Below the pieces are notes generated by a model, which ran no database searches, had not been told where the DNA came from, and saw only the letters and a list, made by a program, of their open reading frames with translations. Of a stretch of 64,000 bases of DNA, positions 5,684 to 24,300 are shown piece by piece; positions within the stretch are counted from its first letter, which is position 1; each line of letters opens with the position of its first letter. The stretch comes from Methylotenera sp. (GTDB taxonomy: Bacteria > Pseudomonadota > Gammaproteobacteria > Burkholderiales > Methylophilaceae). The DNA lies in the NCBI GenBank assembly GCA_030655015.1, contig JAURWJ010000006.1:1-64000 (forward strand), in the 5' to 3' direction. The translations under genes and the position numbers were made by a program.

Positions 5684-5744
5684 AGGGGCCCTAAAGATTA
5701 TGCGTGAATACTTTTTTAAACAGAAAGCTTATCCAACGCTCCGT

Positions 5745-5874
5745 TCCCTGCACCAGTGCTTGGCATCACCGCAGAATATATGAGCTAAAGCTCATTATTC
5801 ATACGAGAAGCTTGGTCGAAGGGAAACTGGCTTAGTAGACCACCCTTCGACCAAGCTCAAGGAACGCAGACGTG
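5745..5874. repeat. REP-like paired palindromes with a nested composite repeat, copy 1 (5752-5823)
   Basis: accagtgcttggcatcaccgcagaatatatgagctaaagctcat... shared with 24203-24273; gcttggtcgaaggg and cccttcgaccaagctc arms. Confidence 0.8.
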
Positions 5875-6882: not shown

Positions 6883-7956
6883 ATGTCTAAAAAACTGACC
6901 ACTTTTTTAGTTCTGGTTGTGTTCGGCCTCGCTATTTTCGGGCTAAACGCTTACAACAAAGAGCCGCTCTATCATAGCCAAAGTTATGTATTTGGCACCT
7001 TAGTCGATATCAGTATTTACGGCGTGCCTGATGCACGTGCCAGCATATTGAGCAATCAGATTTTGCAAGATTTTCAGAGCCTGCATCATCAACTCCATGC
7101 GTGGAAACCAACCAGCGAGAGTCAACCAAGTGAGCTAGGCGCACTTAATCATGCTTTTTCGCAAGGTAAAACCTCTGTGAGCATTAGTCCGCAGCTTGCA
7201 GAAATGCTCACGGATGCTACAAATTTTTCAGTTAAATCTCACGGCTTATTCAACCCGGCCATAGGCCATTTAATCAGCACCTGGGGCTTTCAGCGTGACG
7301 AATTTGGCGCGGTCCATATTGACGATGATAGAATCAAAGCCTTGGTAAAAAGCAAGCCCAGCATGACGGACATCGTCATTAAAAACAATAATGCTTATAG
7401 CAACAACGGGTCAGTAAAGCTTGATTTAGGCGGCTACGCCAAAGGCTATGCCCTAGACATGGCGGCCGATTATTTACGCAAACAACAGGTTAAAAATGCA
7501 CTCATCAACATCGGCGGCAATATCATTGCCCTTGGTCAACATGGTAAAAAGCCTTGGCGCGTAGGCATCCAGCACCCACGCCAGCCATCAGCAATCGCCA
7601 CGCTTGATTTACCCGATGGCTGGGCAATTGGCACCTCAGGTGATTATCAGCGCTACTTCACACTAAACGGCAAGCGTTACTGCCATATCATCGACCCACG
7701 CACGGGTTACCCTGTAGAACACACACAAGCCGTGACTGTGCTTATTTCACCGCAAGCACACGCAGGCGTACTTTCAGATGTAGCCTCAAAACCTATTTTT
7801 ATTGAAGCTGCTGAAAATAAAGCACAAGCTGCGGCTACATTTGGTGTTGAAAATTGGATGGTCATTGACCAAAAATCTAACATTCTAGTCAGTAAGGCGA
7901 TGGCACAAAAACTACATTGGCTTGATACAAATGTTAAATTTTTCACACAACCTTAA
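6883..7956 (+). CDS. apbE: FAD:protein FMN transferase (ApbE family)
   Basis: KLDLGGYAKGYALD, NIGGNIIALG, HIIDPRTGYP motifs; start set to MSKKLTTF at 6883. Confidence 0.93.
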   Translation: MSKKLTTFLVLVVFGLAIFGLNAYNKEPLYHSQSYVFGTLVDISIYGVPDARASILSNQILQDFQSLHHQLHAWKPTSESQPSELGALNHAFSQGKTSVSISPQLAEMLTDATNFSVKSHGLFNPAIGHLISTWGFQRDEFGAVHIDDDRIKALVKSKPSMTDIVIKNNNAYSNNGSVKLDLGGYAKGYALDMAADYLRKQQVKNALINIGGNIIALGQHGKKPWRVGIQHPRQPSAIATLDLPDGWAIGTSGDYQRYFTLNGKRYCHIIDPRTGYPVEHTQAVTVLISPQAHAGVLSDVASKPIFIEAAENKAQAAATFGVENWMVIDQKSNILVSKAMAQKLHWLDTNVKFFTQP

Positions 7957-8329
7957 ACTCGCCGTTAAATCGCTGCGACTTGGCGATTGGCTCGTTGTGG
8001 CAGGCAGCCTAATCGCCATTGCCTATTTATTTCAAACCTTATGGTCTAGCGAACATGCCACTAAAGTACAAATTAGACTCGGTGATAAAATTTACGCCAC
8101 TTACACTCTAAACCAGCTGCGTGATGTACATGTACATGGACCAATAGGCACCGCTGTCATCAGCATTGCGCACGGCAAGGCGCGATTTTCAAAGTCCCCA
8201 TGCCATAATCAATACTGCGTGCATCAAGGCTGGCTAACGCGCGCAGGGCAAGCCGCCATCTGTTTACCTAATCAAATCAGTTTAGAGTTAATAGGTGAAA
8301 ATAAACCTTATGACTCGCTTAACTATTAA
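7931..8329 (+). CDS. NusG domain II-containing protein
   Basis: N-terminal TM segment then domain with CHNQYCVHQGWLTRAGQAAICLPNQISLEL; overlaps apbE. Confidence 0.85.
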   Translation: MLNFSHNLKLAVKSLRLGDWLVVAGSLIAIAYLFQTLWSSEHATKVQIRLGDKIYATYTLNQLRDVHVHGPIGTAVISIAHGKARFSKSPCHNQYCVHQGWLTRAGQAAICLPNQISLELIGENKPYDSLNY

Positions 8330-8334
8330 CTTCA

Positions 8335-8442
8335 GCTTCGATGGCATCGTTCCCTGAGCTTGTCTAAGTGCAACGACCAAGCTTCGGCAGTTCAGCCAAC
8401 ACCACGTCCCCTGAGCTTGTCGAAGGGCGGTATAATCAATAT
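8335..8442. repeat. REP-like palindromic elements
   Basis: cgttccctgagcttgtctaag and gtcccctgagcttgtcgaaggg. Confidence 0.8.
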
Positions 8443-8467
8443 CCAATAGAGTTCTAAGAGCATATAA

Positions 8468-8959
8468 ATGCCATATATGTATATTCTAAAATGCGCTGAT
8501 AACAGTTTTTACACTGGCAGTACTGTCAATCTCGAAAAACGACTTTGGGAACATCAAAACAGCTTAGGGGCAAACTACACTAAAAAAAGACTCCCTGTTA
8601 AATTAGTGTTCTGTGAGGCGTTTTCCAGAGTTGACGAAGCTTTTTATAGAGAAAACCAAGTAAAGGGTTGGAGCCGCGCGAAAAAACAGGCATTGATTGA
8701 TGGGCGATATGAAGATTTACCTGATTTAGCTTTAAACGCTTCTGCTAAAACGTTGGCAATGACAAGCTCAGAGCAAGCAAGTTTAGATACCCCCTTCGAC
8801 AAGCTCAGGGAACGCTCTTCATTGGCTGAGCCCACCGTGTTGGCTGAGCCTGTCGAAGCCCAATCCCAAGCAACACCGGTTAAGCCTACCGCGTTGGCTG
8901 AACCTGTCGAAGCCCAGTCGTTACCCTTCGACAAGCTCAGGGAACGTGGTGTTAGCTAA
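8468..8959 (+). CDS. GIY-YIG nuclease superfamily protein with repeat-derived C-terminal extension
   Basis: MPYMYILKCADNSFYTGSTVNLEKRLWEH (Y-I-L/Y-T-G variant of GIY-YIG), FYRENQVKGWSRAKKQALI; C-terminus LAEPVEAQ / PFDKLRER encoded by REP units. Confidence 0.92.
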   Translation: MPYMYILKCADNSFYTGSTVNLEKRLWEHQNSLGANYTKKRLPVKLVFCEAFSRVDEAFYRENQVKGWSRAKKQALIDGRYEDLPDLALNASAKTLAMTSSEQASLDTPFDKLRERSSLAEPTVLAEPVEAQSQATPVKPTALAEPVEAQSLPFDKLRERGVS

Positions 8960-8975
8960 CCTTGTCGAAGCCAAC
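8789..8975. repeat. Cluster of REP-like palindromic units overlapping the GIY-YIG 3' end
   Basis: cccttcgacaagctcagggaacg twice and ttggctgagcctgtcgaagccca-type units in opposite orientation. Confidence 0.88.
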
Positions 8976-9013
8976 ACCATCGCCCAGTTCCAAGTTAAAA
9001 CCAAATAAAACCC

Positions 9014-9562
9014 GTGAAACCCACCCAAATTCAAACCACCGCTGACGACCACCGCATTGCCAAGCTTGCGGCCTTTGCCATTGCCTTGCACATGATTGAA
9101 GCCGTGATTCCATCGCCTCTCCCAGGTGTTAAGCCCGGTATTGCTAACATCGTTACACTGTATGTTTTAACTCAATATGGTTTTGCAACGGCGGCTTGGG
9201 TCAGTATTTTGCGCGTATTTGCCAGCAGCTTATTACTCGGCCAATTTTTATCGCCTACTTTTGTCCTTAGTTTAGGTGGCGCGGTTTTAAGTTTACTGAT
9301 GTTATGGCTTGCCATGCACCTGCCGAAAAAATACTTCAGCATCGTGACATTAAGCATTTTAGCGGCTTTTGCCCACATTGCAGGGCAGTTGCTGATCGTG
9401 CGCCTATGGCTCATTCCCCATGCCAGCGTGAGTTACTTGATTCCTATATTTGCAATCGCGGCCCTGTTTTTTGGTTTAATCAATGGCCTCATTACGGCTA
9501 AGCTTATCTATAATAAGGCATCAAACGCTGAACCGAACAAAGCTGAGATACCGACAGTTTAA
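9014..9562 (+). CDS. Gx transporter family / HepI-like integral membrane protein
   Basis: HMIEAVIPSPLPGVKPGIANIVTLYVL motif; GTG start; ~180 aa membrane protein. Confidence 0.85.
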   Translation: MKPTQIQTTADDHRIAKLAAFAIALHMIEAVIPSPLPGVKPGIANIVTLYVLTQYGFATAAWVSILRVFASSLLLGQFLSPTFVLSLGGAVLSLLMLWLAMHLPKKYFSIVTLSILAAFAHIAGQLLIVRLWLIPHASVSYLIPIFAIAALFFGLINGLITAKLIYNKASNAEPNKAEIPTV

Positions 9563-18721: not shown

Positions 18722-18850
18722 CGCCGTTCCCTGAGCCCGTCGAAGGCGGTGCCCTGAGCCCGTCGAAGGGCCAAGTGATGCGCCTTTAAAATTAATGGTC
18801 AACGCACCTATCCCTTCGACAGGCTCAGGGAACGGCGCGGGTGAGTTCAG
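18722..18850. repeat. Cluster of REP-like palindromic units
   Basis: ccgttccctgagcccgtcgaagg, gccctgagcccgtcgaaggg, cccttcgacaggctcagggaacgg. Confidence 0.88.
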
Positions 18851-20240: not shown

Positions 20241-20258
20241 CGCCGGCATTAAGTTAAG

Positions 20259-20336
20259 TAGCCTCGATGCAACGCAGTGAAATCGAGGGTGGTCATGGTC
20301 TAATCCCCTCGATTTCACTGCGTTGCATCGAGGCTA
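20259..20336. repeat. Perfect 31-bp inverted repeat, 16-nt loop
   Basis: tagcctcgatgcaacgcagtgaaatcgaggg (20259-20289) / ccctcgatttcactgcgttgcatcgaggcta (20306-20336). Confidence 0.95.
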
Positions 20337-20367
20337 CGCGCTAACCAAGCTTGCCGAAGGGGGAAAC

Positions 20368-24131: not shown

Positions 24132-24273
24132 ATCGCCCTTCGACAAGCTCAGGGAACAGATTTTGGCGGCACGTAAATAGTTACAGAAACTTCGCTCCCG
24201 GTACCAGTGCTTGGCATCACCGCAGAATATATGAGCTAAAGCTCATATATTCTGCGAGAAGCTTGTCGAAGGG
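24132..24273. repeat. REP-like pair enclosing the composite repeat, copy 2 (24203-24273)
   Basis: cccttcgacaagctcagggaac ... gcagaatatatgagct-aa-agctcatatattctgc ... gcttgtcgaaggg. Confidence 0.88.
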
Positions 24274-24300
24274 ATGCAACATTAAATTAAAGCCCATTAA

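Follow-up and report, generated by a model that had tools for sequence, protein, structure and literature searches.

The GIY-YIG gene and the repeats around it

The window, that is, the whole stretch of 64,000 nucleotides that was analysed, contains an open reading frame at 8468..8959 (+) of 163 amino acids plus stop, residues 2-73 of which matched the Pfam GIY-YIG family PF01541 (E=1.1e-16). A conserved nuclease core of about 94 amino acids (8468..8749, +) was delimited by a profile match over residues 1-94, by homologue alignments and by AlphaFold2, which predicted a confident GIY-YIG fold (pLDDT 93.7); the closest solved folds to this model were UPF0213 NMR structures and Slx1. Residues Y5, Y15, R25 and E62 were invariant in 46 homologues, meeting the criterion for the GIY-YIG superfamily, in which the conserved tyrosine, tyrosine, arginine and glutamate positions are catalytic. 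The subfamily of the window gene is marked by a conserved GWSR segment and a C-terminal tail of its own. No model above cut-off in NCBIfam or PHROGs named the function of the nuclease, and NCBIfam returned only a sub-threshold match, to intron endonucleases.

Inverted, tagged copies of the palindrome CGTTCCCTGAGCTTGTCGAAGGG lie on both sides of the gene, with matches at 8353 and 8410 upstream and at 8793, 8843 and 8925 in the 3' part of the reading frame. Read along the sense strand, the two upstream copies have the sequence CGTYCCCTGAGCTTGTCGAAG: the outer one (8348..8371, +) has the tag CGTT and is degenerate, with two core mismatches, and the inner one (8405..8428, +) has the tag CGTC and an exact core and ends about 42 bp 5' of the start codon. 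The main downstream copies are inverted relative to these, one within the reading frame about 43 bp past the core (8792..8814, -) and one at its end with the tag CGTT and an exact core (8924..8946, -), so that the tags face outward at this locus. The reading frame also holds a copy in the GGCTGAGCCTGTCGAAGCC region (8841..8859, +; core 8843-8859) and a diverged copy, GGCTGAACCTGTCGAAGCC (8896..8914, +), recognised by its sequence and belonging to a direct-repeat family. The upstream and downstream blocks are themselves inverted copies of each other, with paired arms at 8348-8390/8904-8946 (43 nt, 84%) and 8389-8427/8924-8962 (39 nt, 90%).

There is no stop codon ahead of the downstream repeats, and the last codons of the reading frame are therefore translated repeat. 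Among homologues, the conserved part stopped near residue 88-94, and the tails beyond it were absent, unrelated or differently arranged, which indicated that the union of nuclease and repeat is incidental; a functional fused domain derived from the repeat was considered and rejected, as the tail was not conserved among homologues. An earlier note, made from the sequence alone, had described a GIY-YIG reading frame with palindromes in its 3' end, upstream and elsewhere in the window, and this held. Its claim that the 3' end was fused to the repeat held only in part: the sequence is real, but represents read-through and not a domain.

The window contained nine palindrome matches with at most three mismatches, compared with 0.07 expected from shuffles, and pattern searches of the genome counted 53 copies with at most two mismatches and none of a reversed control pattern. 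Outside the nuclease locus, the window copies form an inverted pair between gshA and gshB (5742..5866), the first copy of which is interrupted by another dispersed element, a cluster of three copies, two forward and one inverted (18722..18837), and a further group at 24136..24276, where a copy at 24136-24158 is accompanied by a second at about 24192-24276 that is broken up by the dispersed element also seen at 5742-5866. The window had no match in Rfam. The second dispersed element (CACCAGTGCTTGGCATCACCGCAGAATATATGAGCTAAAGCTCAT...GAGAAGCTTG) lies at 5749-5814 and about 24198-24265, in both cases inside a palindrome copy that it splits, and was found in many copies across the genus, including in genomes without a detected window palindrome. 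In G000, the genome of the window, several palindrome copies among L215-L234 (e.g., C26, C40, C53 and C98) were seen within a longer repeated context, ATGGGCAAGTTAACATTCAAGTAG...CGCCTAATGGAAAATCTGGGTT, which may be an insertion sequence end.

Gene and flanking repeats together form a cassette (8332..9013) that synteny allowed to be delimited between a NusG domain II protein (7922..8329, +), the left edge of the empty site, and a protein of the heptaprenyl diphosphate synthase component I family (9014..9562, +), its right edge. In G016, whose flanks are 92% and 95% identical, 10 bp separate the two flanking genes, as against 682 bp in the window; the cassette was likewise absent in G003, G010 and G012 (10-20 bp in its place across the four genomes) and was present at the same place in the more distant G007. 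At the gshA-gshB site, a clean inverted repeat pair was found in G007 and G009, the interrupted pair in the window, and none in G016. These patterns of presence and absence at two orthologous sites indicated that cassette and repeats are gained or lost there. Neither a target duplication nor an exact insertion unit could be defined at the orthologous sites compared. G016 retains 23 repeats, which fits a cassette that was lost while repeats stayed, although lateral gain is not excluded. In a separate observation, the interval between the NusG-domain-II and heptaprenyl synthase genes of G001 (L249) holds a different, CGTC-type inverted pair in the cassette's place.

Distribution of repeats among nuclease homologues and genomes

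Homologues were gathered by protein pattern and not by repeat, and the best 80 loci were analysed, representing at least 11 phyla (Bacteroidota, Cyanobacteriota, Chloroflexota, Pseudomonadota, Thermodesulfobacteriota, Fibrobacterota, Actinomycetota, Spirochaetota, Calditrichota, Planctomycetota and Campylobacterota). With the flank motif defined as CTGAGC-N(1-6)-GTCGAAG, allowing at most one substitution per arm, 76 of the 80 had a hairpin of this form no more than 500 bp from the gene. Hairpin density was 4.04/kb in the first 500 bp compared with 0.05-0.24/kb in all farther bins out to 10 kb, and the strict motif gave 1.53/kb near the gene and no more than 0.1/kb farther away. A test blind to the motif pointed the same way, with 177 repeated bases near the gene and 22 in control windows, and with 52 of 69 loci falling within their own top 5%. 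Four loci had no such motif (L056, L116, L122 and L123); they were nevertheless prominent in the motif-blind test and may carry other palindromes. Loci of the UPF0213 type of GIY-YIG protein that were examined (L155-L157, L161-L164) had no palindromic repeats. A related alphaproteobacterial group (most of L145-L154) carried CATCCTGAGG...CCTCGAAGGACG, with the same outer architecture. Carriage by plasmids or phages was rejected: 13 plasmid and 23 phage records matched, all at below 60% identity, and several of them were UPF0213-like.

The arrangement of the flanking copies was regular in Sphingomonadaceae, where in 12/12 loci the nearest upstream copy was forward at about -47 to -52 (one upstream copy being degenerate) and the nearest downstream copy was reversed at +273 to +308. 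Across the 80 diverse loci, orientation was only biased and not fixed, with 42 of 57 upstream copies forward and 48 of 69 downstream copies reversed.

Repeat number also tracked the gene. In a sample of 299 Pseudomonadota genomes, with carriers defined at a threshold of at least 117.9 bits that was set after the scores had been seen, all 10 carriers had motif copies, numbering 8-160, while six or more copies occurred in only 9 of the 289 non-carriers (p=7e-14, uncorrected for relatedness). Nine further genomes scoring 103-117 bits had few motif copies, most of their loci having the alphaproteobacterial palindrome instead. Among 121 Sphingomonadaceae genomes, six or more copies were found in 34/41 carriers versus 22/80 non-carriers (p=7e-9, again uncorrected for relatedness), and the median copy number was 35 in carriers and 1 in non-carriers; 7 of the 41 carriers had few copies. 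Eight within-genus pairs were listed, and the carrier had the higher count in seven, one of them trivially (2 vs 1), and the lower in one. Orphan repeat populations, with many copies and no detected nuclease of the window subfamily, were therefore real, though far rarer than large populations among carriers. They would be expected if the enzyme can be lost before the repeats decay, a possible explanation, and they weaken any claim that persistence of the repeats needs the enzyme. Palindrome counts of 92, 17 and 67 were noted in G049, G105 and G249, respectively, without a high-scoring subfamily member; in G105 and G249 the loop was GAA. These repeats may have lost their partner, or may be served by a more distantly related nuclease.

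One alternative would treat the palindrome as an ordinary REP, moved by a RAYT encoded at another place in the genome. In its favour, four Y1 transposase (RAYT-like) matches above the Pfam cut-off were present in genome G000, none of them in the window. Against it, no copy of the window palindrome lay within 1.5 kb of these genes, which are flanked by other repeats (GTAGGAGCG... at L005, GTAGCCTCGATG... at L007 and GTAGGTTGGGC... at L008), with a GTAG tag in three of four. The window palindrome lacks the GTAG tag, its own being CGTT/CGNT-like. A RAYT as the mover of this palindrome was consequently rejected, since the RAYTs of the genome are flanked by different repeats, and we consider this alternative very unlikely. 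Elsewhere in the window, at 20258-20337, a GTAG-tagged, perfect inverted pair of 32 bp (GTAGCCTCGATGCAACGCAGTGAAATCGAGGG) resembles the repeats flanking the RAYT-like gene at L007.

A second GIY-YIG subfamily, of type VYILASKKNGTLYVGVTSDL, was flanked by CGTC-tagged REPs, a class described in 2013 as being without a dedicated transposase (Di Nocera et al. 2013, PMC3733652) and having stems that begin with A-T pairs, measure 8-9 bp and enclose loops of 4-5 nt (PMC3733652). A CGTC head was found within 350 bp in 24 of 30 loci and on both sides in 21 of 30, with palindrome variants in most of the others, and CGTC density was 4.88/kb within 250 bp compared with approximately 0.35-1.3/kb farther out. 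At two such loci (L053, 6120-6470; L054, about 8750-9080), inverted CGTC-tagged palindromes closely enclosed the genes, with arms that matched at any one locus and differed between the two. A PDB profile search with the second subfamily found nothing beyond weak similarity to WD-40 and to designed repeat proteins, with no stretch passing alone, and was disregarded.

The partnership of nuclease and repeat that the earlier note had proposed was thus supported, while active spreading of the repeat by the nuclease is still an inference. Its statement that no RAYT was to be seen held for the window only, as Y1 transposase genes occur elsewhere in the genome. The computational checks it had suggested came out in favour of the partnership: repeat number co-varied with the GIY-YIG subfamily in two genome samples, repeat flanking of homologues was far above that of the surrounding DNA and absent from the UPF0213-type genes examined, and no RAYT matching the palindrome was found in the genome, those present being flanked by other palindromes. 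Of the refuting outcomes it had named, that of repeats being equally abundant in genomes lacking the nuclease was partly borne out by the Sphingomonadaceae and Pseudomonadota non-carriers counted above, though far less often than in carriers.

Hairpin structure and its match to the protein tail

Genome copies in G007 and G000 share a common unit, cGtTCCCTGAGCTTGTCGAAGGG, with similarity dropping abruptly at both edges. Each repeat unit, of about 25 nt, has a 5' tag (C-G-N) and a stem, then a tandem GA/AG mismatch and a G-C pair, and its short loop is of 2 nt in the window repeat or GNA in other members; GNA triloops are unusually stable in DNA. Outside the stem, the G at -5 was present in 93% in both loop classes across many phyla, and positions farther out were near random. 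In the 2-nt class, the stem positions covaried, pairing being retained at -2:16 in 162 of 179 (74 expected), at -1:15 in 157 of 179 (62 expected) and at 5:8 in 167 of 179 (100 expected), and the tandem GA/AG mismatch was nearly invariant among hairpins. This combination of compensatory pairing with a near-invariant mismatch indicated that conservation acts on the folded strand. That the nuclease recognises this folded form is strongly suggested, though inferred.

Loop classes were mixed in only 2 of the 80 loci and changed 11 times on the protein tree, compared with 24 times when labels were shuffled (0/500 as low). The motif (A)(E)CxNx[TS]H, in the C-terminal tail of the protein, was present in 31/31 GNA loci and in 1/43 2-nt loci, so that the protein tail agreed with the loop class in 73 of 74 loci, and the codons of the motif varied synonymously. 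The motif was defined after the tails had been inspected, and its counts are therefore descriptive. Only five independent tail-loop contrasts were well supported by the tree, of which four agreed, none disagreed and one was a tie (p=0.125). The coupling of tail and loop is therefore striking but lacks phylogenetic proof.

The association could in principle reflect passive accumulation, in which repeats moved by something else gather at a dispensable gene and the nuclease is unrelated to them. The presence of repeats at other intergenic places and the orphan populations are consistent with this. However, repeat density was raised approximately 20-fold or more only around the window subfamily, with none at the UPF0213 type, a different palindrome accompanies the second subfamily, and neither the tail-loop match nor the fixed geometry would be expected, making passive accumulation very unlikely.

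Interpretation and relation to known systems

Our findings suggested that gene and palindrome likely form one system, a REP-like element with a small GIY-YIG nuclease in place of a RAYT as its dedicated enzyme. The nuclease-repeat partnership is well supported; cleavage at the tag, mobilisation and homing-like spread are only inferred. In the mechanism we propose, the enzyme would recognise the hairpin in its extruded or single-stranded state, as in a lagging-strand template or incoming DNA, with its C-terminal tail reading the loop, and would make a cut close to the CG tag. Once this cut is repaired or recombined, repeats could be copied, homogenised or removed. GIY-YIG enzymes hydrolyse DNA without a covalent intermediate, so that spread, if it occurs, would proceed in a homing-like manner, through break and repair, and not by RAYT-type strand transfer. 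A bolder reading is that the cassettes are autonomous homing-like mobile elements with tails that read the loop, that the many short inverted hairpin pairs descend from them as non-autonomous derivatives, and that several GIY-YIG subfamilies are the missing enzymes of the CG-tagged and CGTC-tagged repeat classes; we hold this to be slightly more doubtful than credible.

A competing explanation is that the protein is a site-specific single-stranded DNA nuclease controlling DNA uptake or recombination, the scattered hairpins being its cut sites and the repeats having spread otherwise or been kept for their function. Conservation of the folded single strand speaks for it, as does the likeness to Ssn of Neisseria, which is reportedly linked with natural transformation. 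Against it, the presence and absence of repeat pairs and cassette at orthologous sites and the geometry of the cassette resemble an element's own ends, and repeat number tracks the gene. On balance we lean a little against this explanation; it is not excluded, and the spreading and uptake-control readings can both hold.

Palindromic repeats are among the commonest repeats of bacterial genomes, and one large class, the CGTC REPs, was left without an enzyme in the 2013 survey (PMC3733652). The partner role for palindromic repeats has so far been given mainly to a different enzyme family, and our results point to small GIY-YIG nucleases as partners of the CGTC and CTGAGC...GTCGAAG classes. These results also supply many natural enzyme-hairpin pairs. 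The tail-loop match opens the recognition code to direct testing and may be of use for enzymes meant to cut single-stranded DNA hairpins of choice.

With the RAYT-associated REP and REPIN elements, the system of the preferred reading, a nuclease-repeat partnership, shares short, tagged, dispersed hairpins, often in inverted pairs and between genes, and an enzyme gene, usually on the chromosome, that has its own repeats on its flanks. It differs in having a GIY-YIG nuclease and not a Y1 HUH transposase, and a CG tag and not GTAG; both kinds coexist in the window's genome with separate palindromes. The CGTC REPs (PMC3733652) are similar in that they form hairpins with CG in the 5' tag, occur as inverted dimers across a wide range of phyla and have no RAYT. 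Compared with CGTC REP families 1-4, however, the tag is only partly similar and the window stem is interrupted by GA/AG and not an 8-9 bp stem started by A-T pairs, and it is the second GIY-YIG subfamily, not that of the window, that the CGTC REPs accompany. The UPF0213 proteins (PDB 1ZG2, 1YWL) and Slx1 are closest in solved fold and sequence, but the UPF0213-type loci examined lacked any associated palindrome, and the GWSR segment and C-terminal tail belong to the window subfamily. GIY-YIG homing endonucleases of the I-TevI type have a similar catalytic domain, and by analogy spread through break and repair is plausible; unlike these, the window protein was found with no intron and no further DNA-binding domain, its conserved part of about 94 amino acids containing only the GIY-YIG domain.

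The literature searched contained no paper linking GIY-YIG proteins with REP elements. A 2025 paper in Nature Communications reportedly described Ssn as a widespread GIY-YIG family of site-specific single-stranded nucleases, reported to have been studied in Neisseria with a multicopy repeat (NTS) and an effect on natural transformation, and to include many homologues of differing specificity. The likeness lies in a small, widespread GIY-YIG enzyme linked to a multicopy repeat, a link also observed here, while the hairpin of the window subfamily differs in its tandem GA/AG, CG tag and 2-nt or GNA loop; it is the second subfamily, with its CGTC REPs, that we take to be closer to the Neisseria case. 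Through Ssn, this kind of system is probably known already, and the present analysis adds to it a class of hairpin, the agreement of protein tail with loop, the tracking of copy number with the gene, and the empty sites.
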